64,000 nucleotides of DNA from positions 1 through 64,000 of the forward strand of contig JAFRCN010000001.1 in assembly GCA_017404335.1 (NCBI GenBank). Direction: 5' to 3'. This stretch comes from Candidatus Saccharimonadota bacterium. Lineage in GTDB: Bacteria; Patescibacteriota; Saccharimonadia; Saccharimonadales; Saccharimonadaceae. The notes under the pieces were generated by a model. It was not told the origin of the DNA and did no database searches. It saw only the letters and a list, made by a program, of their open reading frames with translations. A program made the translations under genes and the position numbers. Positions 15,563 to 60,152 of this stretch are shown in pieces. How positions within the stretch are numbered: the first letter of the stretch is position 1; each line of letters begins with the position of its first letter.

Positions 15563-15664
15563 AGGCAATTAAATATTTGCAAATGTGTTCTGCGGACCTT
15601 GAAGACTTGGCCTGAGCGGCCCGGAGCGTGTCCGAAGGACACGCTTGCAAATATTTAATTGCCT
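15563..15664. repeat. Locus-specific inverted-repeat element E1
   Basis: Two perfect 20-bp arms (15563-15582 and 15645-15664, AGGCAATTAAATATTTGCAA and its complement) enclose a 62-nt core. The core contains GGCC-TGAGC-GGCC and GCGTGTCC-GAA-GGACACGC hairpins. The last ~43 nt of the core are almost identical (one change) to element E2 at 60046, but the arms are unrelated to those of E2. The right arm includes the 3' end and stop codon of the gene at 15655; the left arm ends 2 nt before the -10 of the gene at 14523. Confidence 0.85.
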
Positions 15665-16413
15665 ATTATTCTTTCATTAGGACAGTTCTGCAAAACTCTC
15701 GAAATCGCCTCTTTCTCAGCCGAGGTAACCCATAGCGAATATTTGTATTTCACCGACACCTGCCTCGCCACATACTGACACCGAAACTTCTTATTCGACG
15801 GCAACCACGTCGCCGCGTCCCCATCCGACTTTTGCATATTCGCCGGCCCATCTACTGCAAGCAGATTCAACGGGTCCGTCGCAATCTCGTAGCGCACCGA
15901 CTTGTCCATATACTGCGCCCCTTTCTGCCAAGCGTCCGACAAAGCAACGACGTGGTCAATCTGTACCTTCGAGACCTCCTCCCGACTAGAAAACTTCATG
16001 TGTTCCCCCGTGTACGGCTCATCAAACTCCCCCGCGACGACATTACATCCGTCTAATACCGCCGATTCCCCAAATTCCCGCTTTAAAATCCTCTGCCTCA
16101 GCGAGCATCCGTCTACCGACGGCCACCCGTTATAAAATTCTTCCCTAGAGTATCCCGTCTTCGGCGCCCGTCCCTTTACTTCAAGAAACTCTAAAACCTC
16201 CGTCGCCTTCCGCGCGTTTTCATTACCCTCCGAAACCGCCCCTGCGCTAAAACTCTCCCCACCTCCGGCATCCTCCGCCGTCGCAAACTCCGCCCCAAGA
16301 TTTTCGATTTTCGTAAAAATCGCTTCGTAGCTCGCCGGATTCGTAAAAACAAACACCGCAACCAGCACCAAGCTCGCTAAAACCGCCAGAAGTCTCCTAC
16401 TGCGATATTTCAT
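15655..16413 (-). CDS. Secreted HNH-family nuclease (DUF1524-like)
   Basis: 252 aa. N-terminal signal anchor (RRLLAVLASLVLVAVFVFTN). The C-terminal half carries VQIDHVVALSDAWQKGA (DHxxA of the beta-beta-alpha-metal site), DPLNLLAVDGPANMQKSDGD and WLPSNKKFRCQYVARQV, all typical of secreted DUF1524/GmrSD-type nucleases. Probably degrades external DNA or RNA; CPR cells rely on salvaged nucleotides. It overlaps the upstream gene at 16397 by 17 bp, so they form an operon. Its last codons lie in the arm of element E1. Confidence 0.8.
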   Translation of the reverse strand: MKYRSRRLLAVLASLVLVAVFVFTNPASYEAIFTKIENLGAEFATAEDAGGGESFSAGAVSEGNENARKATEVLEFLEVKGRAPKTGYSREEFYNGWPSVDGCSLRQRILKREFGESAVLDGCNVVAGEFDEPYTGEHMKFSSREEVSKVQIDHVVALSDAWQKGAQYMDKSVRYEIATDPLNLLAVDGPANMQKSDGDAATWLPSNKKFRCQYVARQVSVKYKYSLWVTSAEKEAISRVLQNCPNERIIGN

Positions 16414-17392
16414 TTATCTTTTCTACTTCCGCATTAGAGTTTACTATATTCGTTAGTTCCTCATTCTTCGCCACCGCCTGATTATATTCGTCAACTTTCC
16501 CGTTATATGTCGCCACCAACCGATTCACTTCCTCAAACTGCGCATTTAATTCCGTCTGTTCTCTTAAAATCTCCGACCGTCTCGTCCGAAAAGCATACTC
16601 CGAATTAAAACATCCCGCCGTCTCCGCACAGTTATTAAATTCCCCTACGGTTTTATTATATCTTTCCGCTCGCGCTTCATAATTCGCTTTTTTTGCTTCA
16701 ATCTCTGCACTCAAACTCTTTAATTCATCTTCGAGCCTAGCGAATTTAGCCTTTAGCTCCCTAAACGGCGAAATATACTGATTATAATACGAAACAATTA
16801 AGTCTTGGTCCTCAAAAAACCGCGCATAATACTTCGATAATTCCTCCGGCAATTCGGAAATCTCCGTCCCCACTCGCGAATGCAACTCGTCGTACCGTTC
16901 CGAACCCTCGTAGAGCGCCAACTCTTCACCCAAAGTATCGCTATTCTTCCGATAAACCTCCTCGAGTAGAACCGATAAAGAAATCCGCTCCGAATCCGAA
17001 AATCTTGCATAGGCCGCGTGCAGCAGCTCATGCGCCGCCGTCAGCTCCCGAATCCCATCGAAAGTTTCGTCAGTAATGTTATAAACAAAAATCCCACCGT
17101 TCGTGTAACACCCCAATATATAAATACTAGCGTCATGCGACTGACAGTTTAGATTAAAGCCCTCTCTCTCCTCCAAAACCGGAAAACTCGCATTAAAAAT
17201 TCTCACCCCCTCTCCCGTCAACTTCAATTTATCCCTAATTATAGCCATCTCCTCAGTCGGCTGATAAAACATCCCGCGCGTAAAATCTGAAATCACCGTC
17301 CGGTTCAAGGTCAAAGCCAGCGTAATTGCAATTAAAACCCCCACCCCGAGCCCCCATTTAATTACAAATAAGATTTTTGCCCGCTTCTCCAT
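16397..17392 (-). CDS. Membrane-anchored zincin-like protein with coiled coil
   Basis: 331 aa. N-terminal transmembrane helix (WGLGVGVLIAITLALTL). TAAHELLHAAYARFSDSE looks like a HExxH-type metallopeptidase helix, though the third position pattern is HELLH. Residues ~215-330 are a long coiled coil (LKSLSAEIEAKKANYEARAE) with a Cys pair NNCAETAGCF. Substrate unknown. TATAAT lies 6 nt before the ATG. First gene of the operon with the secreted nuclease. Confidence 0.6.
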   Translation of the reverse strand: MEKRAKILFVIKWGLGVGVLIAITLALTLNRTVISDFTRGMFYQPTEEMAIIRDKLKLTGEGVRIFNASFPVLEEREGFNLNCQSHDASIYILGCYTNGGIFVYNITDETFDGIRELTAAHELLHAAYARFSDSERISLSVLLEEVYRKNSDTLGEELALYEGSERYDELHSRVGTEISELPEELSKYYARFFEDQDLIVSYYNQYISPFRELKAKFARLEDELKSLSAEIEAKKANYEARAERYNKTVGEFNNCAETAGCFNSEYAFRTRRSEILREQTELNAQFEEVNRLVATYNGKVDEYNQAVAKNEELTNIVNSNAEVEKINEISQ

Positions 17393-17411
17393 TCCTTCAT
17401 TATAGCATGAA

Positions 17412-17434
17412 AAGCCCCGGACGTGCCGGGGCTT
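17412..17434 (-). terminator. Terminator of the 114-aa orphan gene
   Basis: AAGCCCCGG-ACGTG-CCGGGGCTT hairpin with TTTT on the minus-strand side. Confidence 0.85.
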
Positions 17435-17464
17435 AAGAAAAGAACTTGTTGTATTTTTAGAAAA

Positions 17465-17809
17465 TCAAGACCCACCGGCTCCGTCACGCAGAATCACATG
17501 CGTCCGCATATCCTTCGCCCAAAGGAGATATACAATCTCTCTTCCACCCCTACCATGGGTGCGCTCTCTGATCACAACAATATCATCAAGCTTTCTCTTG
17601 GACTTCCTGATTTTCTCGACGTCCTCCTCCTCGTAAACATAATGAACGGAAATACTTCCCCCATCCGTCCGTACCGGACGCACCGGCAGTTTATCCTTAC
17701 TTACCGGAAACCGCCGAATTTCCCCCGTCGTCTCCTCGTAGAGCCGAATCGTCCGGCCGGTCATGTTCACGAGGTCCTCAGTTAGTCTTACAGAGCTGTA
17801 GTCTCGCAT
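17465..17809 (-). CDS. Orphan small basic protein (114 aa)
   Basis: Basic, charged protein without transmembrane or signal segments; motifs such as VNMTGRTIRLYEETTGEIRR and DDIVVIRERTHGRGGREIVY suggest a small beta-rich fold. No family recognised. It is monocistronic with its own TTGAAT-17-TATAAT promoter, a GGGGGT SD and its own terminator, like six other orphan genes in the window. Confidence 0.65.
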   Translation of the reverse strand: MRDYSSVRLTEDLVNMTGRTIRLYEETTGEIRRFPVSKDKLPVRPVRTDGGSISVHYVYEEEDVEKIRKSKRKLDDIVVIRERTHGRGGREIVYLLWAKDMRTHVILRDGAGGS

Positions 17810-17851
17810 TCCATTTACCCCCTATTTTACTTGCCCAAAGGGCATCTTTTA

Positions 17852-17880
17852 ATTATAGCACACTTCAACTAAAAATTCAA
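17852..17880 (-). promoter_or_regulatory. Promoter of the 114-aa orphan gene
   Basis: Minus strand TTGAAT (17875-17880), 17 bp, TATAAT (17852-17857) within GAAGTGTGCTATAAT. Confidence 0.85.
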
Positions 17881-18024
17881 CCTGCTTAGCCCCCTTATGT
17901 TTTTTATCTCCGTAACGTTCAATTCTCAAGTTTCTTGGCGAGCCTTAGTTTCAAGACCACAACTTTTTAAAAATAGAATTGCATCATCATAGTCATTGCA
18001 TATCTTATATTATTATGCGCTAAA

Positions 18025-18165
18025 ACATGCTATAATTATACCTACAATAACAGATAATATAGGTTGGTTATGAATTTAAAGATCGGAGTCTTGAATTTTT
18101 AAACCAACCTGTTTCTCTTATCCTATTCTCGGTCAAAATTCATCTTTTTAAAACGAAGTGGAAAA
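18025..18165 (+). ncRNA. ychF-leader-derived hairpin RNA with 10-codon mini-ORF, copy 1
   Basis: From 18026 onward the sequence repeats the ychF promoter, leader and start (19435 onward) with one change over ~57 nt: TATAAT at 18031-18036, AGGTTGGTT, then ATG. It then diverges, giving a 10-codon ORF at 18070-18102 (MNLKIGVLNF, TAA). The ORF is followed by AAACCAACCT, which pairs with the AGGTTGGTT before the ATG and closes a hairpin around the ORF. Homology to copy 2 continues about 60 nt further. The 3' end is estimated. Nothing is seen in 17881-18024. Confidence 0.55.
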
Positions 18166-18245
18166 GTATTAATACCAAAAAAAGACGCGCTTGATATAGT
18201 TCAATATCTTGGGCATCTTTAAACACTATTATAGCATAAAAAGAA

Positions 18246-18281
18246 GGCGACATCCCGCATATATCCAATGCAGGACTCGCC
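18246..18281 (-). terminator. Terminator of the 20-aa minus-strand ORF
   Basis: GGCGA / TCGCC outer stem plus an inner GCAT-rich stem, followed on the minus strand by TTCTTTTT. Confidence 0.6.
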
Positions 18282-18305
18282 TCCAATAATTTAATTATAC
18301 GCCAA

Positions 18306-18368
18306 TTACTTTTCAAAATCAAGTATCTCTAAGACAACACCGTTAGGAATGATTTTACCTTTTTTCAT
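18306..18368 (-). CDS. 20-aa leaderless mini-ORF, possible nuclease-gene remnant
   Basis: Minus strand TATAAT (18376-18381), 7 nt, ATG, then MKKGKIIPNGVVLEILDFEK and TAA, with a terminator 25 nt further on. The start resembles the N-terminus of toxin-nuclease proteins of the kind encoded at 18604, so it may be a truncated paralogue. A genuine micropeptide is possible too. Evidence is positional only. Confidence 0.35.
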   Translation of the reverse strand: MKKGKIIPNGVVLEILDFEK

Positions 18369-18414
18369 GCGAAGCATTATATCTAATCTACCTCAATCTT
18401 TCAACCCCCACCTA

Positions 18415-18560
18415 CAATATGTGATATAATAATACCAATAATAACAGATAGAAAGGTTGGTTTTGAACTTAAAAATCGGAATCTTAAATATCTAAACCAA
18501 CCTACTTCTTTTATCCCGTTTACTACCAAAATCCGCTTATCAAAACCAAAATGAAAAAAC
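18415..18560 (+). ncRNA. ychF-leader-derived hairpin RNA with 10-codon mini-ORF, copy 2
   Basis: Diverged second copy: TATAAT at 18425-18430 preceded by TG, AGGTTGGTT, then a TTG-initiated ORF at 18463-18495 (MNLKIGILNI if read from TTG, TAA) and AAACCAACCT. Compared with copy 1 the codon changes are silent or conservative (AAT/AAC, AAG/AAA, TTG/TTA, Val/Ile, Phe/Ile), which suggests the peptide or the RNA pairing is kept. Confidence 0.55.
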
Positions 18561-18603
18561 ATAACGATTTTTATTCATAAATAGAATGGCTTATAATAAT
18601 ACC

Positions 18604-18996
18604 ATGCAAAATAAGAGAAAAACTGGAATCTATATCGCACCAGGTCGCAAGCCTTGGCCTCATGAGCTAAGAGTAGCAGAAATTCTTTCTTTAGCTGGGC
18701 ATTATATTGAATTTTTAGAAGAAGGAAATTTACATACCGCAGATATTAAACTAGATGGTATAGAATACGAAATAAAATCTCCAGAATCTTTCAACTCAAA
18801 TACTTTTGAACATAAACTAAAAGACGCCACAAAGCAATCACCAAATTTAATCATCGATACTTCTCGCATGAAAAAAGTCCGAGATTTGAAAGTTCGTAAT
18901 TTTCTCATTAATCAAATGCGCAAACAAAAGCAAATAAAACGTATGATCATGGTAACAAAACGCGGCCAAATTATTGATATTTCTGTGTTAATTTGA
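18604..18996 (+). CDS. CdiA-C-terminal-like toxin nuclease
   Basis: 130 aa from ATG 18604 (MQNKRKTGIY), chosen because TATAAT ends exactly 6 nt before it; the upstream in-frame ATG at 18586 would precede that -10. The sequence RKPWPHELRVAEILSLAGH, then IEFLEEG, TADIKLDGIEYEIKSPES and KQSPNLIIDTSRM fits the restriction-endonuclease-like fold of CdiA-type tRNase domains (H-E, D, ExK). Here it is free-standing, with no signal peptide and no recognisable immunity gene. It could be a toxin, a defence nuclease or a captured effector. AT-rich. Confidence 0.6.
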   Translation: MQNKRKTGIYIAPGRKPWPHELRVAEILSLAGHYIEFLEEGNLHTADIKLDGIEYEIKSPESFNSNTFEHKLKDATKQSPNLIIDTSRMKKVRDLKVRNFLINQMRKQKQIKRMIMVTKRGQIIDISVLI

Positions 18997-19413
18997 TATA
19001 ATACAAGTATCGAAGTTCTTGCAGGGCGCAGTATGTGCCGAGCGCGGGAGCTTCTTTTTTATAATGCTTTTAGCCCTCTCCACAAAATCTTTTTTATTAT
19101 TATAATTTATTATTTCTTCAGCAATTGAAGAAATAGCACTACTTGGGTTTACTCCAGATTTTACGAAACAGTATATCAGTTTTTTGTCATCATAAAACCA
19201 TCCGAGTTCTATACCTACACCAATAGACGGCTCACTGCATTCCGCAATCACTACATCATAGCTTTTGTAGTCTTCTCTAGAATTATGAATATCAACGCCC
19301 TCTTCATGCGGTAAAACCAATTCGTGTTCCAAGAAAAAATCATCGTTTCTCAGTGGTTCATATATCTCTTTTTTATAATCGATGCTAGTTGGATGCGCTA
19401 TATAGATTCTCAT
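18988..19413 (-). CDS. Nucleoside 2-deoxyribosyltransferase-like protein
   Basis: 141 aa from ATG 19413 (MRIYIAHPTS), with TATAAT exactly 6 nt upstream. RIYIAHPTSIDYKKEIYEPL, SYDVVIAECSEPSIGVGIEL (catalytic Glu region) and KKLIYCFVKSG match the deoxyribosyltransferase / related nucleotide-hydrolase fold. It exchanges or hydrolyses nucleoside bases in salvage. The last ~17 residues are read from the terminator hairpin of the convergent gene, so the C-terminus may be an accident of overlap. Confidence 0.7.
   Translation of the reverse strand: MRIYIAHPTSIDYKKEIYEPLRNDDFFLEHELVLPHEEGVDIHNSREDYKSYDVVIAECSEPSIGVGIELGWFYDDKKLIYCFVKSGVNPSSAISSIAEEIINYNNKKDFVERAKSIIKKKLPRSAHTAPCKNFDTCIISN
19012..19060 (+). 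terminator. Two-stem terminator or small RNA
   Basis: Outer stem GAAGTTCTTGC (19012-19022) with GCGGGAGCTTC (19044-19054), inner stem GGCGCA / TGTGCC with GTA loop, then TTTTTT. It ends the nuclease gene. A TATAAT at 18997-19002, straight after the stop codon, could also start a ~55-nt RNA covering just this structure. It overlaps the 3' end of the opposite gene at 18988. Confidence 0.7.
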
Positions 19414-19477
19414 TCTTATATTATACATTAAAGCATGTTATAATTATACCTACAATAACAGATAATATAGGTTGGTT

Positions 19478-20581
19478 ATGAATTTAAAAATCGGTATCGT
19501 CGGCCTTCCAAATGTCGGCAAATCTACACTATTTAATGCACTTACAAACGCTGGCGCACTCGCCGCGAATTACCCTTTTGCTACCATCGAACCGAATGTT
19601 GGCATTGTCCCCGTCCCCGATGAACGCTTAGACATATTAGCTAAAATATACGAAACCGATAAAGTCGTCCCGGCTACCGTAGAGTTCGTCGATATTGCCG
19701 GTCTCGTCGCCGGCGCCTCTAAAGGCGAAGGTCTCGGCAACAAATTCCTCGCCCATATCCGCGAATGCCAAGCCATCTGCCACGTCGTTCGTGCTTTCAA
19801 ATCGAGCGACATTGTCCGTGCCGACAACAAGCCCGAAGACGACATCGTAAAACAAGCCAAAGACGACATCGATATCATCAACCTCGAACTCCAACTCGCC
19901 GACGAAGAAACCAAAGCCAAAATCGAAGCCAAACGCAAAAAAGACCCCCAAGACGAAAACGTCCCCTATTTAACCGATAAACCCGTCATCTACATGTTCA
20001 ACGTCGACGAAGAAGGCCTTACCGACAAAGCCCTGCAACATGAATTAACAAAGATGGCTAAAAAGATTCACGAGAACCGTCCTTTTGAGAGCATTCGCGA
20101 CAACGGGAGCGAACGACGAAGCGAGCCCCGTAACGACGGGCGCGAGCGAGGAGGCGAACAAAAGGATGGTTCCGTGAATCTACAAACTATTTTCGTGAAT
20201 GCTAAATTGGAGGAAGAAATGTCCGGCATGAATCGCGAAGAGCGAAAAGAATTTCTTGAAAGTTACGGCGTAGCCGACGATGCACTAGGTGAGTTGATCA
20301 GAGCAGCATATAAGACTTTGGGGCTACAATCATTCCTTACCGCTGGCAAAAAAGAAGTACGAGCATGGACCATCAAGCAAGGTGCTACAGCGCCAGAAGC
20401 GGCCGGGACCATCCACACCGATTTTCAGCGTGGCTTTATCGCCGCCAACGTCTGCAAATACGATGACCTTGCCCGCCTCGGCTCCGAGCTCGCTGTCAAA
20501 CAAGCCGGCCTTCTCCGCACCGAAGGTAAAACTTACGTCATGCAAGATGGCGACGTCGTCGAATTCAAATTCAACATCTAA
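19478..20581 (+). CDS. ychF: Ribosome-binding ATPase YchF with in-frame palindromic insertion
   Basis: 367 aa. Obg-family P-loop ATPase/GTPase: GIVGLPNVGKSTLFNALT (G1), VDIAGLVAGASKGEGLGN (G3), MFNVDEEG in place of the NKxD box as in YchF, and a C-terminal TGS domain (TIKQGATAPEAAGTIHTDF). Start is ATG 19478; TTG at 19472 is less likely. The leader from TATAAT (19439-19444) to ATG is 33 nt and contains AGGTTGGTT directly before the ATG. Residues ~196-234 are not normal YchF sequence: they are read from the 116-nt element E3 and include SERRSEPRNDGRERGGEQ, probably a surface loop. Confidence 0.95.
   Translation: MNLKIGIVGLPNVGKSTLFNALTNAGALAANYPFATIEPNVGIVPVPDERLDILAKIYETDKVVPATVEFVDIAGLVAGASKGEGLGNKFLAHIRECQAICHVVRAFKSSDIVRADNKPEDDIVKQAKDDIDIINLELQLADEETKAKIEAKRKKDPQDENVPYLTDKPVIYMFNVDEEGLTDKALQHELTKMAKKIHENRPFESIRDNGSERRSEPRNDGRERGGEQKDGSVNLQTIFVNAKLEEEMSGMNREERKEFLESYGVADDALGELIRAAYKTLGLQSFLTAGKKEVRAWTIKQGATAPEAAGTIHTDFQRGFIAANVCKYDDLARLGSELAVKQAGLLRTEGKTYVMQDGDVVEFKFNI
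20065..20180. repeat. In-frame inverted-repeat element E3 inside ychF
   Basis: Arms 20065-20087 and 20159-20180 pair over 22 bp with one bulge and one G-T pair. They enclose a GC-rich core with CCCGT-AACG-ACGGG hairpin. The core resembles that of E4 in truB (shared GAGCCCCGTAACGACGGGCG, 20 nt), while the arms are unrelated to those of E4. The reading frame stays open. Confidence 0.85.
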
Positions 20582-20583
20582 AC

Positions 20584-21549
20584 TTAATTTATCGTAAACC
20601 AATCCCTCACTCTAAACTCCCCATCCACATCCGCGACCGCCAGTATCGGCGAAAACCGCCCGAATTCCCTGCTCCGAAACTTCATAAAGCTCTCCGCCGC
20701 AAATTTCATTCTATCTAGTTTTCGTTTATCCACCGCCGCCACTCCACCGCCAAAGTCTAAACTTCCCCTGGTCTTCACCTCCGTAAAATAAATAGTATCT
20801 TTAAAAACCGAAATAATATCAATCTCATAAAACTTCGTTTTAAAATTTCGCGCGACTATCTTATGCCCCAATCTCTCTAAATATTTCGAAACCGCCCCTT
20901 CCCCTCTAAGCCCTACATCTGTTGTATTTTTTACAACATTCTTCACCGAATTTAGACTCCTCGAAAACCCCACCATACTCTTAATCGGCTCAAAACTCCG
21001 CCGATGTTCCTCGCAAATCCCGTATTCGTTAATCGCCTTCAGGTGTTTTGCCGTCCCGTAGCCGACATTTTTTTCAAATCCATAATCCGGATATTTTTCA
21101 GCCAGTTCATACATATAATGGTCTCGCGCCACCTTCGCGATAATCGACGCCGCCGAAACTTCGCGCACTAAATCATCCGCCTTCGGCATAGTAGAAACAT
21201 ATTTCTCCAGCTCTGTCAACTTCAGAAAATTCACTTTTCCATCAATCACTATCTGAGAAAACACAGCGTGAAGCCCCTTTAGAGACTTCACAGCCCGCCT
21301 CGTCGCTAGCCGAAGAGCCTCCGAAATCCCAACTAAGTCCAGCTCCGACGAAGACACCCAGCCGAGCCCCGTCACCGCCTCATTTATAATCACTTCGTTT
21401 AAAGCTTCTCGCTTTTTCACCGACAACTTCTTCGAATCCCGAAGCTCCGCAAACCATTCCATTTCGTCTTCCGGCAAAACAACCGCCCCCACAACAAGCG
21501 GACCCGCTAGGGGTCCGCGTCCAACTTCGTCTATTCCGAGAATCGCCAT
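20584..21549 (-). CDS. rnhB: Ribonuclease HII fused to YraN/UPF0102 nuclease domain
   Basis: 321 aa. Residues 1-~205 are RNase HII: GIDEVGRGPLAGPLV (D, E), LRDSKKLS, VSAASIIAKVARDHYM (catalytic Asp), GYGTAKHL, HRRSFEP. Residues ~215-321 are a YraN-type endonuclease-fold domain: GEGAVSKYLERLGHKIVARN, YEIDIISVFKDTIYFTEVKT (E-D-ExK) and VDKRKLDRM. rnhB and yraN are separate neighbours in most bacteria. RNase HII removes ribonucleotides from DNA; YraN has no settled role. Start overlaps the rplS stop by one base. Confidence 0.93.
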   Translation of the reverse strand: MAILGIDEVGRGPLAGPLVVGAVVLPEDEMEWFAELRDSKKLSVKKREALNEVIINEAVTGLGWVSSSELDLVGISEALRLATRRAVKSLKGLHAVFSQIVIDGKVNFLKLTELEKYVSTMPKADDLVREVSAASIIAKVARDHYMYELAEKYPDYGFEKNVGYGTAKHLKAINEYGICEEHRRSFEPIKSMVGFSRSLNSVKNVVKNTTDVGLRGEGAVSKYLERLGHKIVARNFKTKFYEIDIISVFKDTIYFTEVKTRGSLDFGGGVAAVDKRKLDRMKFAAESFMKFRSREFGRFSPILAVADVDGEFRVRDWFTIN

Positions 21550-22043: not shown

Positions 22044-22146
22044 ATTATACCTTTTATATTAGAAACTACTTTTTATTCTATCATACTTACTCTAAAAAAT
22101 CAACATTAAATAAAAGTCTTCCTCGAGAAACATAAAACATCGATTA

Positions 22147-23946: not shown

Positions 23947-24051
23947 TTTTTCCTCTTTCGTAAAAACGAAGTTAAATAATATCAACGTACGCCTTAAGTC
24001 CCAAACCCCACTAAATTATAGCATAAAAATTATAAACGCAAAACAAAAATT

Positions 24052-25148: not shown

Positions 25149-25163
25149 AATAACATTATAACA

Positions 25164-25252
25164 TGGGCGGGTGACGTCTGCGGAAGGGGACCCCAAAATG
25201 TTTTGCGAAGCAAAAATTTTGGGGAGGGAGAGCAGACGGCAGGACCCGCCCA
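25164..25252. repeat. Inverted-repeat element E5 between radA and ruvC
   Basis: Outer arms TGGGCGGGT / ACCCGCCCA (9 bp), second stem CGTCTGC / GCAGACG, and an inner long hairpin from CCCCAAAAT through TTTTGC-GAA-GCAAAA to ATTTTGGGG. It fills the whole gap from the radA stop to the extended -10 of ruvC. Architecture matches E1 and E2 (GAA-capped inner hairpin, abuts a -10), but sequence does not. Confidence 0.75.
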
Positions 25253-36282: not shown

Positions 36283-37038
36283 ATGGAAGACAGAATCATC
36301 CTCATCGACAAACCCGCCGGGATTTCTAGCTTCGGCATTGTCGCAAAAATCCGCGGAAAGTTAAAAGCCGAGCTCGGCAAAAAAGTCAAAGTCGGCCATA
36401 CCGGCACCTTAGACCCCTTCGCGACTGGCCTTTTAATCCTCCTAACTGGCAAAATGACCAAAAAGTCCTCCGACTTCTTAAAGCTCGACAAAACCTACGA
36501 AGCAACCCTAAAACTTGGCTTTACCTCCACCACCGGCGACCCCGAAGGAGAAATTAGAGAAGTGATCTCTTCAAAACATAGTGAGAACCTCGGAGTTCAA
36601 TACCAACCAATTGAGGACCATGCCCGACCAACGGGGAGGGAACGAGCGACTGAGCCCCGTAACGACGGGCGCGAAGGAGCGCGTCCGAAATTGGTTGATA
36701 TTGAACTCGTTCTTTCTCCATTTATTGGTAAAATCACCCAAACCCCTCCAAAATTCAGCGCCATCAAAATCAACGGTCAAAGAGCATACAAACTCGCCCG
36801 TAAAGGCGCCGACTTCGAAGTCCCTTCTCGCGAAGTCACTATCTATAATATCGAAATCCTAGATTATAATTACCCCGAGCTTAGGATCCGTTGCGACGTC
36901 TCCTCCGGCACCTACATTCGCACCCTTGCCGAAGATATCGGAGAAAAGCTCGGCACCGGCGCCTACCTTACCGCTCTCCGCCGTATCAAAATCGGCGATT
37001 ATGACATTAAAGACGCAAAAACTTTAGACATGATATAA
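36283..37038 (+). CDS. truB: tRNA pseudouridine-55 synthase TruB with in-frame insertion
   Basis: 251 aa. Catalytic VGHTGTLDPFATGLLIL (Asp), KTYEATLKLGFTSTTGDPEG, QTPPKFSAIKINGQRAYKLAR, and RCDVSSGTYIRTLAEDIGEKL. Makes the T-loop pseudouridine. TATAAT 6 nt before the ATG (leaderless). Residues ~104-142 come from element E4 and include RPTGRERATEPRNDGREG, not present in ordinary TruB. Confidence 0.95.
   Translation: MEDRIILIDKPAGISSFGIVAKIRGKLKAELGKKVKVGHTGTLDPFATGLLILLTGKMTKKSSDFLKLDKTYEATLKLGFTSTTGDPEGEIREVISSKHSENLGVQYQPIEDHARPTGRERATEPRNDGREGARPKLVDIELVLSPFIGKITQTPPKFSAIKINGQRAYKLARKGADFEVPSREVTIYNIEILDYNYPELRIRCDVSSGTYIRTLAEDIGEKLGTGAYLTALRRIKIGDYDIKDAKTLDMI
36593..36708. repeat. In-frame inverted-repeat element E4 inside truB
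   Basis: Arms 36593-36612 and 36689-36708 are complementary at 19 of 20 positions (GAGTTCAATACCAACCAATT). The core has the CCCGT-AACG-ACGGG hairpin shared with E3. Total length 116 nt, the same as E3. Confidence 0.87.
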
Positions 37039-45859: not shown

Positions 45860-46626
45860 GATTTCACTCTCTTTGCTACCTCAATTATATCAGCGAACTC
45901 GCTTAGAATCAAGCTCGAACCACCGATAAGGAGCCCGTTCACGCCCGGCACGGTCAAATACCCGCCCGCATTCGAAGGATTCACGCTTCCTCCGAAGAGT
46001 ATCGGCACTTTCTCAGCTATTTTCTCTCCATAAGTTTCCGCCAGAATCTTCCGGATTAAAGCCATCGCCTCGGCAATTTCATCTGGTGAAGCCAACTTTG
46101 CCGCTTTTGTTGACGAAATCGCCCAAACCGGCTCATAGGCAATAATCACCTTCTCCAACTCGTCATCTGCTACTTCCGACAATCCCCCAATTAGCTGGTC
46201 TCGAATCACGTCCGCCGTCTCTCCGAACGCCCGCTCACTCTCCGTCTCGCCGATGCAAAGAATCGGCGTAATCTTATTTCGCATCGCTGCCGCGACTTTT
46301 TTCTGGATCATCTTATCATCTTCGCCAAAAATATGTCTTCTCTCCGAATGCCCAATAATACAATAATCTACTATCCCTCTGAGTTGCGAAAAGGAAACTT
46401 CTCCCGTAAACGCTCCATAGTCTCGGTAAAACCCGTTTTGCGCCGCTAATTTCATCTTATGTCGGTCAATTTGTAAAGACAAAGATTGCAAAGCAATCAA
46501 AGACGGCGAAATCACCACCTCTAAATCTCGATAATTAGGTATTTTTTTAAGAAGTTTGTGAAGATAAATCGACGCCTCCCCCACCGTAAAATTTAACTTC
46601 CAGTTGCCCACGATATAAGTTTTCAT
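45856..46626 (-). CDS. tpiA: Triosephosphate isomerase
   Basis: 256 aa. IVGNWKLNF (Asn, Lys), CIIGHSERRHIFGEDD (His), VIIAYEPVWAISSTKAA (catalytic Glu), PILFGGSVNPSNAGGYL. TATAAT 6 nt before the ATG; divergent from the aldolase fusion, with 30 bp between starts. Confidence 0.97.
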   Translation of the reverse strand: MKTYIVGNWKLNFTVGEASIYLHKLLKKIPNYRDLEVVISPSLIALQSLSLQIDRHKMKLAAQNGFYRDYGAFTGEVSFSQLRGIVDYCIIGHSERRHIFGEDDKMIQKKVAAAMRNKITPILCIGETESERAFGETADVIRDQLIGGLSEVADDELEKVIIAYEPVWAISSTKAAKLASPDEIAEAMALIRKILAETYGEKIAEKVPILFGGSVNPSNAGGYLTVPGVNGLLIGGSSLILSEFADIIEVAKRVKS

Positions 46627-46656
46627 ATTCTCATTATAACATGCTATAATAAACTT

Positions 46657-48501
46657 ATGAATATTTTAATCGTGGGCAATATTCTTAAAGATATTTACCT
46701 AAACCTAGACAGTCGCTCCGAGCCCTTCGAGACCGACAAAAATTCCGTAAAATGGCTAAATTTAAGTTTCGATGCCTCGAGCCATCGTTTTTTTAGTCGC
46801 AGTAGTAGTTTCTCTGGCGCCGCCGTGACTCTAGAAGTCCTGAGAAACCTCGGGCTTAATGCCGAAGTCGTCGGCTCTTCCCTAGACTTCGAATCCGAAG
46901 CTTCCACCGAAGCTAAGGCGCATCGCTACATCCTCGTTTCCGATAACACCGTAAGTTATTTTACTCCCTCAACCCCATCACCGACCGATTTTGTCACTCC
47001 TGAAATCAGTGTCGACTATCTCTATATCGATCGCTCCGCCAATCTGACCCCCGAAGCCTCCTCTAAAATCTCTGCTTATCTCGATACAAACCCAAACGCT
47101 AAACTCGTCATCTATCTTAAAGATTTTACCCCCGAAACTTTAACTCCCTTAATCTCACGTGCCAATCTCGTCTTTCTCGAAGATAACCCCGAAAAACCGG
47201 CAATTTCCTACGCGCCTCTCTTAAAGGCTCTCGACCCGAAGAATATCATTCGCATCTCCGAAAAACGCCTCTCGACTTACAATATGTCCGAAAATCTCTC
47301 GATTAGTCGTGTCGACGTACAAACTCATCTCTCCGCCTTTTCAATCGCCTCGGCCACCATCCTTGGCTGTTTTATCCTCGGTAAATCCGTCGAAGAAAGT
47401 CTCGAGCTCGCCCGCATTAATACCGAAAACTCCAAGCTAAACGCCTCCCTCTCCCTCGAAAAACTCGAAGAGCTGATGGAAGAACCTAGCCCCGACGAAA
47501 ATCTCGAGCTCATCGCAAAATCCCTCGTCCTCCCCGGTAAAGGCATTCTCGCCGCCGACGAATCCGGCGGTTCAATCAAAAAGAAGTTCGAAAAACTTGG
47601 CATCGAAGACACCTACGATAATCGCCGCAGTTACCGCAACATCTTCTTTACCACCCCGAAACTCGAAGAGTTCGCCTCCGGCGTTATCCTTTTCGACGAA
47701 ACCGCCCGCCAGCTCTCCGACGATGGCCGTAATTTCGTCGATTTTCTCATTTCCCGCCGTATTATCCCCGGTATTAAAGTCGATCAAGGTCTCGAACCCT
47801 TCGAAAAATCCGAAGAAACCTATACCAAAGGTCTCGATGGTCTCGAATATCGTCTCGCCGACTACTACGATATGGGTCTTCGCTTCGCCAAATGGCGCTC
47901 CGCCTTCGAAATCCGTCTTGACGATAACGGTAATTTAAAAACTCCGACCAATCGCGCCATCGAGAAAAACTGCACTGACCTCGCGACATATGCTCGCGCT
48001 TGTCAATCCGCCGGTCTCGTACCTATCGTCGAACCCGAAGTCGTCTACGACGGCCTCTATGACATCAATAAATCCGCCGCCGTAACCAGTAAAATTCTCG
48101 ACTGCCTCTTCGAATCACTCAGCGAAGCCGGAGTCAATCTCCGCGCCTGCCTCCTCAAAGTCAACATGATTCTTGCCGGCAAACAATCCGAAGCCCAATC
48201 TACCCCCGAAGAAGTCGGCCTAAAAACCGCCGAAATCTTAAAGACCCACGTTCCTAAAAACCTCGCCGGCGTCGTTTTCCTATCTGGTGGCCAATCCGCC
48301 GAACAAGCCACCGACAATCTCGCCGCCGTCGAAAAAAACGGTCCTTTCCCTTGGCCCGTAACTTTCTCTTTCGCTCGTGCCCTCCAAGACCCCGCCCTCT
48401 ATACTTGGCGTGGTCGCCCCGAATACGAAAACGCCGCTCGCGCTGCTTTCCTTGCTCGCCTGATGGCAAACGCCCGTGCCCTAAACCCCAACAATAATTA
48501 A
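46657..48501 (+). CDS. Degenerate PfkB-like domain fused to class I fructose-bisphosphate aldolase
   Basis: 614 aa. Residues 1-~265 resemble the PfkB sugar-kinase fold: ILIVGNILKDIYLNL, FSGAAVTLEVLRNLGLNAEV (signature 1), and DVQTHLSAFSIASATIL where active kinases have DTTGAGDAF; the GAGD anion hole and catalytic Asp are replaced. Residues ~275-610 are class I aldolase: PGKGILAADESGGSIKKKFE, FFTTPKL, GVILFDETARQ, RLADYYDMGLRFAKWRSAF, CLLKVNMILAGK (Schiff-base Lys), GVVFLSGGQSAEQATDNLAA, and FSFARALQDPALYTWRG. Cleaves fructose-1,6-bisphosphate next to tpiA, the following glycolytic enzyme. TATAAT 6 nt before the ATG. Confidence 0.88.
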   Translation: MNILIVGNILKDIYLNLDSRSEPFETDKNSVKWLNLSFDASSHRFFSRSSSFSGAAVTLEVLRNLGLNAEVVGSSLDFESEASTEAKAHRYILVSDNTVSYFTPSTPSPTDFVTPEISVDYLYIDRSANLTPEASSKISAYLDTNPNAKLVIYLKDFTPETLTPLISRANLVFLEDNPEKPAISYAPLLKALDPKNIIRISEKRLSTYNMSENLSISRVDVQTHLSAFSIASATILGCFILGKSVEESLELARINTENSKLNASLSLEKLEELMEEPSPDENLELIAKSLVLPGKGILAADESGGSIKKKFEKLGIEDTYDNRRSYRNIFFTTPKLEEFASGVILFDETARQLSDDGRNFVDFLISRRIIPGIKVDQGLEPFEKSEETYTKGLDGLEYRLADYYDMGLRFAKWRSAFEIRLDDNGNLKTPTNRAIEKNCTDLATYARACQSAGLVPIVEPEVVYDGLYDINKSAAVTSKILDCLFESLSEAGVNLRACLLKVNMILAGKQSEAQSTPEEVGLKTAEILKTHVPKNLAGVVFLSGGQSAEQATDNLAAVEKNGPFPWPVTFSFARALQDPALYTWRGRPEYENAARAAFLARLMANARALNPNNN

Positions 48502-50509: not shown

Positions 50510-50538
50510 AAAATAATAAACTCCTTTACTTAATTATA

Positions 50539-50985: not shown

Positions 50986-50995
50986 GCTTTCCTTT

Positions 50996-51763: not shown

Positions 51764-51800
51764 ACCCATTATTATATCATAAATATGGTATAATAGCACC

Positions 51801-53748: not shown

Positions 53749-53808
53749 GCCCCGAACTCTAGCACACGGTTTTTTAAAAATCAACCCTATTCATGCTATA
53801 ATTTAAGC

Positions 53809-54525: not shown

Positions 54526-54751
54526 CGAAAAAGACCTCAAAAAACTCTTAAAAACCGACGCCAAAGCCCTCGGCATCCCCTCCGGCGCCGCCGAAATTTT
54601 CATCGAACGAACATTAAAATCCATCGAAAAATCCTTAAAATCAAAAGACCTAATCACCGAATCCGATCTCACCCGCCTCGTCGTCCGCGAATTAAAAAAA
54701 TATCACGCGGATTTAGCTTATGTTTACCAAAATCGTGATAAAATAGTATAA
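54515..54751 (+). CDS. Small helical protein resembling an ATP-cone tail
   Basis: 78 aa. Helical (FIERTLKSIEKSLKSKDLIT), ending RELKKYHADLAYVYQNRDKI, which resembles the end of ATP-cone/NrdR domains. Middle gene of a three-gene operon. Confidence 0.5.
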   Translation: MEYNEKDLKKLLKTDAKALGIPSGAAEIFIERTLKSIEKSLKSKDLITESDLTRLVVRELKKYHADLAYVYQNRDKIV

Positions 54752-54753
54752 GG

Positions 54754-56133
54754 ATGGGAAAAAAATACGGTTTTAAATATATAGTTATTGGTAGTGGCCC
54801 CGCCGGCTCTGCCACTGCTTTAGCCCTAGCTAAAGCCAAAAAAAGCGTTGCTTTGGTCGAAGGTCGCTTCTTCGGTGGCGCAAATCTAAACACCCGCGAC
54901 ATTCCATACGCGGTAGCGCTAAATTCCGCGCATAATTATTACCTCGCGCGCATTTCTCCAGAATTCTCGAGTTCTGATTTTTCGGTTAATCTACCCGCAA
55001 TTATAAGTCGCGAGCTTAAAGCCTCGCTCTCCGCCGGCGCGAATGATACTAAATCTTTCGAAGACGCCGGCATATCTTGTATTAAAGGCTATGCTAATTT
55101 TCTTGATAACCATACTATCGCCGTCGGCAAAAATAAATACACCGCCGAACGTTTTATCCTCGCCACCGGCGCAAAGCTGGACACTAAAGGCATCGTCGGG
55201 ACCGATTCTGTCAGCTTCCTTACCCCCGAGACCGCCATCCGTCTTCGTAAGTTACCCAAAGTCGCACTCGTCGTTGGTGGTGGCTCAACCGGCGTCGAAA
55301 TCGCCGAATACTACGCCAAACTTGGCGTTAAAGTTATTCTCATGGAAGCCAAATCCCGTATCCTTCCGCGCGAAGACGAGGAAGTCAGCCTCGCTATCTC
55401 CGACCATCTAACCCGTCTCGGCGTCATGATTCTTCCAGATTGCCAAGTCGTCGCTCTAGAACAAGGAAAATCCACTAAGCGTGTTATTTTTAAACAGGCT
55501 TCCGCCGAAAAAATGATCAAAATCGACTGCGTCGTTCTCGCGACCGGCTCGAAACCGGCCCTCGACTACGGACTAGAAAACGCCGGCGTCAAATACAAAG
55601 AAACCGGCATTCTAACTAATAGCTCGTTCGAAACTTCCGCTAAAAATATCTACGCCATCGGCGACTGCGTTAATAACTCCCCAGAATCTTCAACCGACCG
55701 CGCAAACTACGAGGGTCTCCTCCTCGCTTCAAACCTAACCGGTAAAGCTAAGTCCCCCTGCAATTACTCTGGTATCATCCGTATAATCAAAACCAACCCT
55801 GGAGTCGCGACTATTGGTCGGAACGAAGCCGACCTCATCGCGAAAAAAATTAAATCTAAGAAAGCCTTCGTTCCACTTTCCGAAATCACCGCCTCAAAAA
55901 CCAGTCTAGGTGTATCCGGTTTCGTAAAACTTCTCGCCGATTCCGACAATAAACTCCTCGGCGCCACCATCGTCGCCCCTAACGCCGAACTAATTATCGA
56001 AGAACTAGCTCTCGCTATGCGCCATCATCTCTCTGCCCTCGAACTCGCCGCCACCCCTCATTCTATGAATAGCTACAACTACGCTGTTAAACTCGCCGCG
56101 AAAAAACTTATTTCCGCCAAGAAAACTAAATAA
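54754..56133 (+). CDS. FAD/NAD(P) oxidoreductase of the disulfide-reductase family lacking the redox cysteines
   Basis: 459 aa. FAD site VIGSGPAGSATALALAKAKK, second dinucleotide site VALVVGGGSTGVEIAEYYAK, FAD-binding NIYAIGDCVNN, and dimer domain GVATIGRNEADLIA. Where family members have GGxCxNxGCxPSK this protein reads GGANLNTRDIPYAVAL: both cysteines are gone. The C-terminal HPT...E pair is also altered (ATPHSMNSYNYA). It is therefore not a dithiol reductase; NAD(P)H oxidase or quinone-type reduction is possible. Confidence 0.85.
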   Translation: MGKKYGFKYIVIGSGPAGSATALALAKAKKSVALVEGRFFGGANLNTRDIPYAVALNSAHNYYLARISPEFSSSDFSVNLPAIISRELKASLSAGANDTKSFEDAGISCIKGYANFLDNHTIAVGKNKYTAERFILATGAKLDTKGIVGTDSVSFLTPETAIRLRKLPKVALVVGGGSTGVEIAEYYAKLGVKVILMEAKSRILPREDEEVSLAISDHLTRLGVMILPDCQVVALEQGKSTKRVIFKQASAEKMIKIDCVVLATGSKPALDYGLENAGVKYKETGILTNSSFETSAKNIYAIGDCVNNSPESSTDRANYEGLLLASNLTGKAKSPCNYSGIIRIIKTNPGVATIGRNEADLIAKKIKSKKAFVPLSEITASKTSLGVSGFVKLLADSDNKLLGATIVAPNAELIIEELALAMRHHLSALELAATPHSMNSYNYAVKLAAKKLISAKKTK

Positions 56134-56151
56134 CCGATAAGCTCCAAACAC

Positions 56152-56193
56152 AAAAATCGACCTAAGTTAGGGGGGTAACTTAGGCCGATTTTT
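56152..56193. terminator. Bidirectional terminator
   Basis: AAAAATCG, CCTAAGTTA, G6 loop, TAACTTAGG, CGATTTTT: A-stem-T layout on both strands, between the oxidoreductase and tRNA-fMet. Confidence 0.9.
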
Positions 56194-56223
56194 ACTCTGA
56201 AATCTATAGACTTCAAAACTTGG

Positions 56224-56297
56224 TTGCGGGGGCTAGATTTGAACTAGCGACCTTTTGGTTATGAGCCAAACGAGCTACCAGGCTGCTCTACCCCGCG
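56224..56297 (-). tRNA. Initiator tRNA-fMet (CAT)
   Basis: Anticodon loop CTCATAA, three-G stem replaced by TTGG-type pairs, and the C1:A72 mismatch (acceptor CGCGGGG with CCCCGCA) that marks initiators. CCA encoded (56221-56223). Confidence 0.94.
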
Positions 56298-56344
56298 ACA
56301 TTCAATACCTTGAGCGTCTAGGCTTAAACCTGCGCTACCCCCCA

Positions 56345-56373
56345 AGTATAGCACTCCCCCCGCAAAATGTCAA
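56345..56373 (-). promoter_or_regulatory. Promoter of tRNA-fMet
   Basis: TTGACA (56368-56373), 17 bp, TATACT (56345-56350); about 47 nt of leader before the tRNA. Confidence 0.8.
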
Positions 56374-56380
56374 GTGCTTT

Positions 56381-57748
56381 TTATAAACCATATTCAATCG
56401 TAGTGGTCAAATCTTTTCTTAGCAAAGAGTTACCGTCGTCATCGCCTAAAAGTTGCAACGCATACAGCGGATATGGGAAATTCGCGTCCGCTGAGTCTAA
56501 CCTCGCTTCGACCCTCCGGTAAAGATCATTCGCACGTCCAGTTGAATCAATATTAATCTGTACTCCACTCAGCATTGCTTGTGAAATTTTTTCATCGCCT
56601 AGTTCAGCTGCTTCAATGGTTGACTTCCCGCAACTTTCACCATTACAGAAAAACTCTAACGCAAAATCAGTGTTAGGCTGACCATAAGGCACCGACACTA
56701 CAAACATAAACGTTTCATCATTTCTCTCTCCACCAATCGGCTTAGGAAGCGACAGCAGTGCCGAACAAACAAACTCCGTTCCTCCATTCGGATCACAATA
56801 AACCGCATAAGGTAAATTCTTCACTGTCCGATCATTCGATTTTACAATTTGTGCCGCCGAAACCATGTTCTCACCTAATTCCTTATTAAAAGCACCTATG
56901 TAATTGTCTGCTTTTGATTTCGAAGCATAATTATCACTATCCGTCGGAACCAAAAACACCGTTCCTCGATTCGTCTGACCATCGGACACTGCATCAAAAC
57001 TCGCCAAATTAAAGCTCGCCCCCGTTTGCACTAATTGAACCGAAATCATCGGTGGTGACGCAGGCGGAGTAGAAGTAATCGATCTAAAAGTCACACCGCT
57101 ATTCACCTCAGAAGAAGAGTTAAAGTTATTATATTTCAAATCTGTCAAACCATCATTTTCAAACCAACTCACCCTTACCCTGTCAATATTATTAGCTGCC
57201 ACCCCGTCAAGTTTAACTTTTACAACTCTCATAGTGTTATCGGATGATAAACTACCTCGGTAATCCGAAAGATTCGTCTTAATTTGTACGCAAGTATAAG
57301 CCTGCGCCATATTGTTTCCCGACGCCGATGACTCTTCTACAATTACACCACCCGCATCATCTCCAGACTCATACTTACCTATTCGACCCAAGATGTGTGC
57401 CACCATATCACATGGCTTATTGTAGTCCTTACTCCCATCCGAATGCTCAACCCAATATATAATATCTTGGCAAGTAATATCTCCACCCATAGATAAATCC
57501 ATAGAGCTAGTTATCCCTTTTTCTAAACAACTCTGATAGTTATAAAACGCCAACTTCGCATCTTCGATCCCAGCCAACGCCGAATCGTAAGCTGATTGAG
57601 ACAAATCATCGTTCGAAGAGCGGGTCACTTCCGAAATAATTACTGCCGCAAACCCAATCGCTACAATCGTCAAAATCAGCGTCGAAAACGCCACTACATA
57701 AAACGCCGCCGCCCCAGATTTATTTTTACTAGATAATCTTTTTTTCAT
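56381..57748 (-). CDS. PilX-like pilus assembly protein
   Basis: 455 aa. Basic start, then a long N-terminal hydrophobic helix (AAAFYVVAFSTLILTIVAIG) without the G-FTLIE cleavage motif, then a secreted beta-rich domain with three Cys pairs (FFCNGESCGKS). Third of a pilin operon, 2 bp after the previous gene. Confidence 0.7.
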   Translation of the reverse strand: MKKRLSSKNKSGAAAFYVVAFSTLILTIVAIGFAAVIISEVTRSSNDDLSQSAYDSALAGIEDAKLAFYNYQSCLEKGITSSMDLSMGGDITCQDIIYWVEHSDGSKDYNKPCDMVAHILGRIGKYESGDDAGGVIVEESSASGNNMAQAYTCVQIKTNLSDYRGSLSSDNTMRVVKVKLDGVAANNIDRVRVSWFENDGLTDLKYNNFNSSSEVNSGVTFRSITSTPPASPPMISVQLVQTGASFNLASFDAVSDGQTNRGTVFLVPTDSDNYASKSKADNYIGAFNKELGENMVSAAQIVKSNDRTVKNLPYAVYCDPNGGTEFVCSALLSLPKPIGGERNDETFMFVVSVPYGQPNTDFALEFFCNGESCGKSTIEAAELGDEKISQAMLSGVQINIDSTGRANDLYRRVEARLDSADANFPYPLYALQLLGDDDGNSLLRKDLTTTIEYGL

Positions 57749-57750
57749 AC

Positions 57751-58761
57751 TTACTCTCCAGTCGCCTGCACGGCAAAATTAAATTTATTAATCGCACAAT
57801 AATCAGTATTCGCGTAAGCCGCATCAGCGTAATCTTTTGGCGGCACACAATAATTTCCTGACGCCGTCACGTCTATCCCTCCCTGAATCGTCCCTAAAAC
57901 GAAAGACGCTGAATAGAAAAGACCATTTTCCGCCGCATTTTGCACCGCCGCCGTCGAACGCAAATCGTATAATACTAAGTTATTCACCGCACCCGGAACT
58001 AGAACCTCAACGATATCGCCTTCCGTTAACTCATGAAAAGTATAGGCATCCTCTTCTGTTCTTTTTATCAAACTAAAGATGCTAGCCTTCCCGTTTCGAT
58101 TAATACTGGCTAAGGCTCCAGTGGCATTATCGGTATTTTTTACTGTGTATCTTTGGCCACCATCACTACTAATCGTATCACCAAGAGTCGCTGAAATACA
58201 AACCGCCCGCGCCGTATCTTTGACTTTTATCAACCTAAAAGGTTTTTTTAGATCCTCAGGAAAAGTTTTCACGCCCCCGCCAGCCACATTATACTCCAAA
58301 CTAGCTGGATCTACACCCCCCAACACCTCTGCCTCCAATTTATCAGTAAAGAAATATCCCGAATTCCAAATATACGAATACGAACCTGTGCAAAACGCTC
58401 CAAAAACCGGCACATTGTCGACATCCTTCCCACGAATTTTAACCGTTGCCAACTTCTCTACCGAAGTAAAATTCCGGGCATTATCTGTTTCGCATTCATC
58501 CTTCGCACCTGAAGAACTCCCATACACTACACCACAAAGATTTTTCACCGAGCTCACTGATGAGTTCTGTACTGCCGCCCGGAAGTCATCTACCAAATCT
58601 ATCCCTGTAGTATTAATCTGATTTAAAATCATTCCGCGCCGATACGCCGCAATTGTATCGTTTATAATTAGCGCTACCGCAATCGACAGAAGACCAATAA
58701 ACGCCACCGATAGCGAGAACTCAATCAACGTAAATCCTTTTCTGAATTCTTTTTCCCGCAT
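57751..58761 (-). CDS. Type IV prepilin-like protein
   Basis: 336 aa from ATG 58761 (MREKEFRKG), TATAAT 6 nt upstream. Class III prepilin motif RKG|FTLIEFSLSVAFIGLLSI: cleavage after Gly, E5, hydrophobic helix. Large C-terminal domain with cysteines near the end (GNYCVPP, NTDYCAIN). Minor pilin or tip subunit. Confidence 0.85.
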   Translation of the reverse strand: MREKEFRKGFTLIEFSLSVAFIGLLSIAVALIINDTIAAYRRGMILNQINTTGIDLVDDFRAAVQNSSVSSVKNLCGVVYGSSSGAKDECETDNARNFTSVEKLATVKIRGKDVDNVPVFGAFCTGSYSYIWNSGYFFTDKLEAEVLGGVDPASLEYNVAGGGVKTFPEDLKKPFRLIKVKDTARAVCISATLGDTISSDGGQRYTVKNTDNATGALASINRNGKASIFSLIKRTEEDAYTFHELTEGDIVEVLVPGAVNNLVLYDLRSTAAVQNAAENGLFYSASFVLGTIQGGIDVTASGNYCVPPKDYADAAYANTDYCAINKFNFAVQATGE

Positions 58762-58784
58762 ATGTTTATTATACCACATACTAA

Positions 58785-59597
58785 TCAGCTCGAGCAACGA
58801 TAGTCCTCCGAATCACTAGTGACCAAAATAACTCCCGACGCATTTCTTGCCCCCTTCACCAATCGAACATTCTGCCGCAACCTATTCGCCTCTCCTGGCG
58901 TCGGATTAATACAAAAATCAATATCTAACATCTCAAAATCCTCTAAATTGGCTTTTAGAGGATTGTCCGAAAAGCCAGAGCCATCCTCCGTTCCAGTATT
59001 AATACCCACATTGTACCAATACTTAGTCTGATTAACCGGAATTGCTCTATTCTCTAAAATATATGTAAAAACCGTTCCTGAACGCGGATGGCGAACTATC
59101 ATAATAGAGCCAGTAAAATCCGAAAAACCGGACTTTTTTTCAATTGTCGCCCCCCACTTCGGCGTATAACTCGCCGCCATTCCAGAAGAGTAGTAATTAT
59201 TATTCTTCTCATCATAAAAGACTATGTTGGCCTCTAAATCCGACAGGGCTTTCTTTATGTCACCGGTTCCAATATCGCCCACATTTCCGATAATATCATA
59301 AGTAAATATCGCATTCCGATCATCAATCCGCTCTTCCGCCAAATCATATTTTTCGCCAAAGGTAATCAACTTACCATAAATTGCTTTATCCGATCGACCT
59401 TGTCCTTGGTTCTCTACATTCGAAACCTGAGAGTAAATACCCCTTAAAAACTCTACAAAGTTTTGTACTGAATCATTATAGCGCTGTTGAAAAATCGAAT
59501 TATGCGTCCCAACTGCTACCGCTACGAATAGTGCCGCCGTCAAAACCAAAAACATCACCACCTCAATCAACGTAAATCCTTTACGCGTTGTTCTCAT
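58785..59597 (-). CDS. Type IV prepilin-like protein
   Basis: 270 aa. TRKG|FTLIEVVMFLVLTAALFV prepilin motif with E5. C-terminal Cys in DIDFCINPTPGEANRLR and DSEDYRCSS. TATAAT 6 nt before the ATG. First gene of the three-pilin cluster. Confidence 0.87.
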   Translation of the reverse strand: MRTTRKGFTLIEVVMFLVLTAALFVAVAVGTHNSIFQQRYNDSVQNFVEFLRGIYSQVSNVENQGQGRSDKAIYGKLITFGEKYDLAEERIDDRNAIFTYDIIGNVGDIGTGDIKKALSDLEANIVFYDEKNNNYYSSGMAASYTPKWGATIEKKSGFSDFTGSIMIVRHPRSGTVFTYILENRAIPVNQTKYWYNVGINTGTEDGSGFSDNPLKANLEDFEMLDIDFCINPTPGEANRLRQNVRLVKGARNASGVILVTSDSEDYRCSS

Positions 59598-59609
59598 GCT
59601 TATATTATA

Positions 59610-60032
59610 TCATGGAAATAAAAATTTCATCCATTTTTCAAAATTTGAATATTCTTTCACTGCCGTCTCTTCTTTTATACTACCGTGCTTGTTTTTCGCC
59701 TCTTCCGTATTCTCCGGAAGTATCACCATATTTTCGTTCGGAAGTTTCTTATCTAAATACTTACGCGCGGAGAGTTCTTGATATTCTTCCGTTTTATAGT
59801 ATTCATTCTCTAGTTCCGCCATCTCAACCTCAACCCTAAGAAGCTCCAAACTTCTCTTTTCCGCCGCTAATCTCTCGGTCAACTCCCAGTTTCTCGACAT
59901 TGCTTTAATCGACTGAAACGTCCACACCGACCCGAGCACAATCGCAAGTAGCAACACAACATTCTCCACCGCCAAAAAATCATGTTTAAACTTATACTTC
60001 ATCCTCCTAAACCAGCTTCTAATACCGTTCAT
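59610..60032 (-). CDS. FtsB/DivIC-like single-pass coiled-coil protein
   Basis: 140 aa. One transmembrane helix (NVVLLLAIVLGSVWTF), coiled coil (ELTERLAAEKRSLELLRVEV) and the septum-initiator ending YQELSARKYLDKKLPNENMV. Divisome or pilus-associated role. TACAAT 6 nt before the ATG; element E2 abuts this -10. Confidence 0.75.
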   Translation of the reverse strand: MNGIRSWFRRMKYKFKHDFLAVENVVLLLAIVLGSVWTFQSIKAMSRNWELTERLAAEKRSLELLRVEVEMAELENEYYKTEEYQELSARKYLDKKLPNENMVILPENTEEAKNKHGSIKEETAVKEYSNFEKWMKFLFP

Positions 60033-60045
60033 GTTTAAATTGTAT

Positions 60046-60152
60046 CACAAGATGAAAAATATTCCCAAACTGTCCTAAGGAACATGAAGACTTGGCCAGA
60101 GCGGCCCGGAGCGTGTCCGAAGGACACGCTTGGGAATATTTTTCATCTTGTG
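60046..60152. repeat. Locus-specific inverted-repeat element E2
   Basis: Two perfect 23-bp arms (60046-60068, 60130-60152; CACAAGATGAAAAATATTCC... and complement) enclose a 61-nt core sharing ~43 nt with E1 (one change), with GGCC-AGAGC-GGCC and GCGTGTCC-GAA-GGACACGC hairpins. It lies exactly between the -10 of the minus gene at 59610 and the -10 of tRNA-Ile. Confidence 0.87.

Follow-up and report, generated by a model that had tools for sequence, protein, structure and literature searches.

Among the short palindromic sequences dispersed over bacterial genomes, miniature inverted-repeat transposable elements (MITEs), repetitive extragenic palindromes with their associated tyrosine transposases (REP/RAYT) and enterobacterial repetitive intergenic consensus sequences (ERIC) carry terminal repeats that belong to the element itself, and REP systems use a Y1 transposase. 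Copies of the Rickettsia palindromic elements (RPE) fall into families conserved over their full length. RPE are described as palindromes of about 150 bp, grouped in several families, with a large number of copies inserted in frame within unrelated genes of a genome that has undergone reduction (PMC10969869). When DNA synthesis switches template from one inverted repeat to the other, the products are quasipalindromes with homogenized arms, multi-base compensatory changes and inverted spacers (PMC8604942; PMC8794818). Perfect inverted repeats also occur within translated genes in the mitochondria of Nematomorpha; there the two arms encode conserved protein, and the abstract mentions no shared core (PMC6649704). 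The window analyzed here, i.e., bases 1-64000 of contig 5 (JAFRCN010000001.1) in the six-contig, 685,718-base genome of a Candidatus Saccharimonadota bacterium (GCA_017404335.1), holds five palindromic elements (E1 to E5), in four of which a core found at many other sites is enclosed by arms peculiar to each site. The genome of this tiny, parasitic organism contains dozens of these small hairpin insertions, with a common centre and site-bound arms of about 20 letters that remain complementary in the course of evolution.

The comparison with the described systems gives likenesses and differences. Like MITEs, REP/RAYT and ERIC, the elements are short, dispersed and palindromic, but terminal repeats shared in the manner of MITEs are absent from the first family (core A), the arms of the second (core B) differ by eye between copies, one pair excepted, and the third (core C) has constant ends. 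In contrast to REP/RAYT, the genome has no Y1 transposase, which was detected in 6 of the 174 genomes of the genus (E ≤ 1e-5). As in RPE, palindromes of about 100-150 bp lie in frame in unrelated protein genes; unlike in RPE, the outer stem of about 20 bp is specific to the site and conservation of the whole element, stem included, is absent. Homogenized arms with matched changes, together with a spacer that at one locus is clearly inverted between intact arms, recall template-switch quasipalindromes, which nonetheless start from the sequence of the site, whereas the elements here have as their spacer a conserved core that is dispersed over the genome. The literature searched, which lacked most subscription papers, gave no description of elements of this kind.

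E1 and E2 carry core A and illustrate the plan of the family (coordinates are those of the + strand, genes on the opposite strand being marked). E1 is composed of a left arm of 20 nt (15563-15582), which lies in the intergenic space preceding the leftward gene 14523-15548, a core of 62 nt in canonical orientation (15583-15644) and a right arm of 20 nt (15645-15664) that is the exact inverted repeat of the left one. In E2, exact inverted repeats of 23 nt (60046-60068 and 60130-60152) enclose the core at 60069-60129. The original prediction that the two share a core with a single change and have perfect arms was borne out, with 47 nt in common, and so was its statement that the right arm of E1 is the 3′ end of a gene: 15655-16413 (-), a gene running leftward, has its stop codon at 15655-15657, inside that arm. 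Each element folds alone into one long stem (RNA folding against shuffled sequences, z = -8.68 for E1 and -10.58 for E2), and the core A pattern was matched twice in the window, against zero matches expected by shuffling. The gene ending in the right arm of E1 encodes a GmrSD_C domain. The right arm of E2 is followed by a TATAAT motif, read by eye as a promoter, and by a tRNA gene at 60169-60245 (ARAGORN: anticodon tat, called tRNA-Ile), and a similar promoter-like stretch, inverted, was seen by eye in its left arm, toward the gene 59610-60032.

The arms follow the locus and not the core, as originally proposed. Among the ten stem-bearing core A copies of the genome (45 pairs), identity was 0.90 in the core and 0.42 in the outer arm, against 0.37 for shuffled arms. 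In a set of 134 copies, where those identical over 105 bases were merged, 129 reached a stem score of at least 15, compared with 4 of 300 combinations of left and right sides swapped between copies; considering the outer part alone, 102 of the 134 scored at least 12, and 1 of the 300 swapped pairings did so. In Saccharibacteria (68 copies, merged if identical over 64 core bases and dropped if the stem score was below 15) the stem begins, on the core side, with roughly 15 bp that are conserved and recurrently mismatched, and continues into an outer portion of roughly 20 bp that is specific to the site and almost perfectly paired. In Bifidobacterium most stems end near 29 bp, again with a sequence specific to the site. 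One of 56 Bifidobacterium copies was dropped as out of register and 52 of the remaining 55 were aligned over 29 stem pairs: 91.2% of the cells were standard pairs, a value lowered at the outermost pairs, some of which were shifted out of register by aligner gaps, against 56.4% (sd 0.9) after shuffling and 33-47% when the arms were slid along each other. In 512 cells both sides had changed.

Comparison of orthologous sites indicated how these stems change. In the tsaD insert, present at the same place in this genome and in the genome G035, 6 of 20 stem positions differed, and by eye each change was matched on the opposite arm. Both arms of the locus orthologous to E1 (L195) are one base shorter than those of E1, a matched indel also seen between L136 and L150, and matched transversions distinguish L119 from L132. 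At one locus shared by B. callitrichos and B. rousetti (L124/L148) the core is inverted while the arms are the same except for one matched pair; flanks matching in inverted order were seen in 14 Bifidobacterium pairs drawn from some six loci, and this was the only one in which the arms were also shared. The same locus of B. santillanense (L331) has another core between other, perfect arms of 29 bp; the ends of this core resemble core A and its inner part is much longer. In B. platyrrhinorum, core A was not found in 3.4 kb at this locus, where the right flank is not collinear. Two inverted-order core A hairpins about 190 bp apart occur in B. panos (L147 and L188), and a second place in that genome has the pair as well, its arms unchanged.

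Core B, with 16 matches in the genome, behaves in a similar way within genes. The element in truB (E4) has in-frame arms of 20 nt (36593-36612 and 36689-36708) around a core of 76 nt, likewise in frame (36613-36688), and the one in ychF (E3) has a left arm of 24 nt (20064-20087) and a right arm of 23 nt (20159-20181), which pair with some mismatches, around the core at 20088-20158 (81% match at 20085-20145). The earlier view that these two share a second core was therefore correct. When 45 truB loci were compared, six of which had no readable site, the same loop contained core B, core C or other cores across species, usually within complementary arms in the loci that were read; by eye, L279 and L291, from two species, hold different cores within the same outer arms. 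As regards target-site duplication of the MITE type, what was observed were direct duplications of the left arm and part of an element at the truB loop of L279, L290 and L291.

In-frame copies free of stop codons were found in gatA, ksgA, tsaD (two copies), truB, metG, obgE, queA, argS, valS, rumA, ychF, gyrA and other genes, the names being assigned by eye, with TruB and YchF confirmed. Ten genes were compared with three to five relatives each (roughly 57-86% protein identity in the search), and each had at least one element-free relative; depending on the relatives used, the insert measured 78-114 nt. A core A copy lies at the same place as ours in one tsaD relative (L083), and a shorter extra sequence, in some cases a clear remnant, occupies the site in L082 (tsaD), L086 (truB), L094 (obgE), L100 (queA) and L110 (rumA). 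Of 59 core B copies (merged if identical over 77 bases, stem scores below 13 dropped), 49 were in open frames of at least 130 codons (core in the sense direction in 40), and 24 of the 68 Saccharibacteria core A copies were in frames of at least 150 codons, 15 in antisense and 9 in sense.

Polymerase template switching is described as producing homogenized arms, matched indels and inverted spacers, and for this reason we favor a reading, to which we assign a probability of about 45%, in which the cores are mobile, the target serves as template for the outer stem, and template switching, i.e., snap-back copying, keeps that stem paired. On this reading the travelling unit would be the core alone (about 60-76 nt, loop and inner stem). 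It may enter the site as single-stranded DNA or be acquired where a replication fork has stalled; the newly made strand would then fold back and copy the neighbouring 20 nt or so, closing the hairpin with host sequence, and later rounds of template switching might repair mismatches, flip the spacer or exchange one core for another. Within genes, survivors would be limited to in-frame, stop-free events. Stem maintenance, core exchange and core inversion are observed in the loci compared, whereas the making of an arm at insertion is what we infer. The lasting complementarity of the arms suggests that they are built and repaired by DNA copying at the site. The template switching put forward in the original prediction agrees with the matched indels and the inverted core; one arm may be, as it also proposed, an inverted copy of the flank made at insertion. 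E5 does not belong to the scheme.

A number of results weigh against this reading. Two core B copies, in obgE and, by eye, in a P-type ATPase gene, share their arms, mismatches included, indicating that arms can travel; copies alike in both core and arms, which the original prediction had named as contrary evidence, were found in this one instance among the copies read in this genome. Outer-arm identity in 13 orthologous Saccharibacteria pairs ranged from 0.30 to 1.00, with values near random (0.30-0.50), despite flanks 71-79% alike, for L048/L052 and for gatA, in which a single loop carries core A in four species. This implies either separate insertions at a favoured site, which would fit arms made at insertion, or arms evolving faster than their flanks, which would fit selection on the stem or fast conversion. 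No near-identical empty site was found among the sites compared, so that a fresh insertion was never seen. Hairpin length exceeded the inserted length by a median of 17 nt over the ten genes, near the length of one arm, with a range of 4 to 58.5; for metG and rumA the arm finder had run into the flank. The retained length thus fails to point to one arm in particular. Relatives lacking the element, the empty orthologous sites asked for originally, were obtained for all ten genes, but the apparent ancestral arm varies, since by eye the one in gatA is not the one that metG predicts. Finally, outer-stem mismatches read on the core strand were more often G.T than A.C (61 vs. 39, p = 0.035), and this weak excess is also expected from selection on a single-stranded hairpin.

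Such selection, which the original prediction had also named, is the main rival explanation: a functional RNA or DNA hairpin would be kept with a conserved tip and any paired stem, its arms drifting quickly at each locus by two-step compensatory change. The very strong covariation of the Bifidobacterium stems speaks for it, as does the excess of G.T over A.C at their positions 4-29 on the core strand (60 vs. 27, p = 0.0005; 22 vs. 17 in the outer part alone), and the arms that are near random at several orthologous sites are still paired; some Bifidobacterium copies moreover lie, by eye, shortly upstream of start codons. On the other hand, core A occurs within genes in both orientations, no G.U excess appears in the mRNA sense (16 G.U and 18 A.C for cores A and B together), and matched indels, as well as matched transversions such as those between L119 and L132, bypass G.U intermediates. 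The inserts also vary between species of one genus, and no Rfam family reached the gathering score in eight loci, the only hit being a tmRNA elsewhere in L130. We regard stem selection, under which the core would look conserved because a protein or the fold needs it, as a less likely but substantial alternative.

According to a second alternative, the core inserts at the tip of a palindrome or terminator already present in the host, so that both arms are old. Palindromes with no core do occur, as shown by a perfect one of 38 bp at 424-461, spacerless and located just upstream of the gene starting at 470, and by the AAGCACCAG..CTGGTGCTT palindrome at the otherwise empty truB site of L085; in queA both arms match, by eye, the protein of the empty relatives. 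However, the arms at L085 are those of the occupied site L262, and a deletion remnant is the simpler explanation of that palindrome; the inserted length comes close to that of the full hairpin in obgE, ychF and tsaD (against three of four relatives), and perfect 20-bp palindromes are not expected beforehand in many unrelated housekeeping genes. Pre-existing host palindromes appear an improbable origin. Two weaker palindromes were noted in the window, at 46604-46679 (spacerless, 76% complementary) and at 8042-8076 (94%, with a spacer of 1 nt).

Target-primed reverse transcription, in which the core RNA would be copied at a nick in the target by a cellular reverse transcriptase that next snaps back to copy the primer strand, would by its geometry yield one ancestral and one copied arm, and the genome has four RVT_1 matches, one of them in the window. 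Of the 54 genomes carrying core A, 30 nonetheless had a reverse transcriptase gene, as did 97 of all 174 genomes of the genus (Fisher p = 1.0), so that their presence does not track core A, and no constant polarity of the ancestral arm was found. We consider this route very unlikely. A rule by which the ancestral arm always adjoins the GGACACGC end of core A, or the matching end of core B, was dropped as unproven: by eye E1, ksgA, metG, truB and obgE fit it, gatA is contrary, and queA, rumA and valS fit both directions. The RVT_1 gene of the window (1409-2689, + strand) is flanked by two genes, 470-1408 and 2724-3512, neither of which matched an entry of Pfam, NCBIfam or PADLOC (E ≤ 0.001). 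Its assignment to a defence family was rejected, the reverse transcriptase matches being below the NCBIfam cut-offs and the PADLOC models matched only general ones.

E5, a core C palindrome at 25164-25252, had been thought to follow the same plan with a third sequence. With 12 matches in the genome, core C has ends that are constant in the family, beyond which, by eye, the site-specific arm is only about 4 nt long, and E5 is hence not built like E1-E4: it is a member of a different palindromic family, which shares the habit but not the long arms.

With these elements compared, they are perhaps best likened, though tentatively, to RPE-like mobile palindromes with site-templated outer stems. Core A was detected in 54 of 174 genomes of the genus (E ≤ 1e-6) but was absent from the 24 genomes compared from elsewhere in the order, and core B was detected in 27 of 36 genomes of the genus. 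When a 26-base piece of core A was searched against 84,980 species genomes, at least 57 stretches from Saccharibacteria and at least 57 from Bifidobacteriaceae were among the 114 matches listed. Viral contigs gave no match to the core A pattern, nor, at the sensitivities of these searches, did phages and plasmids match the one Bifidobacterium core A copy used as query. A core common to an epibiotic phylum and to Bifidobacterium hints at DNA exchange between them. The broader picture, in which the elements have no ends of their own, the arms are made by copying the site back on itself, core families are interchangeable within arms and a core was transferred between Bifidobacterium and the Saccharibacteria, epibionts of Actinobacteria, is one that we hold with considerable reserve, the odds being rather against it as a whole. 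If true, the terminal repeats of a transposable element need not be its own, as the site can provide them, and these hairpins would constitute a natural, high-copy record of bacterial template switching, visible within essential proteins, in which the persistence of stems by selection or by repair would become testable.

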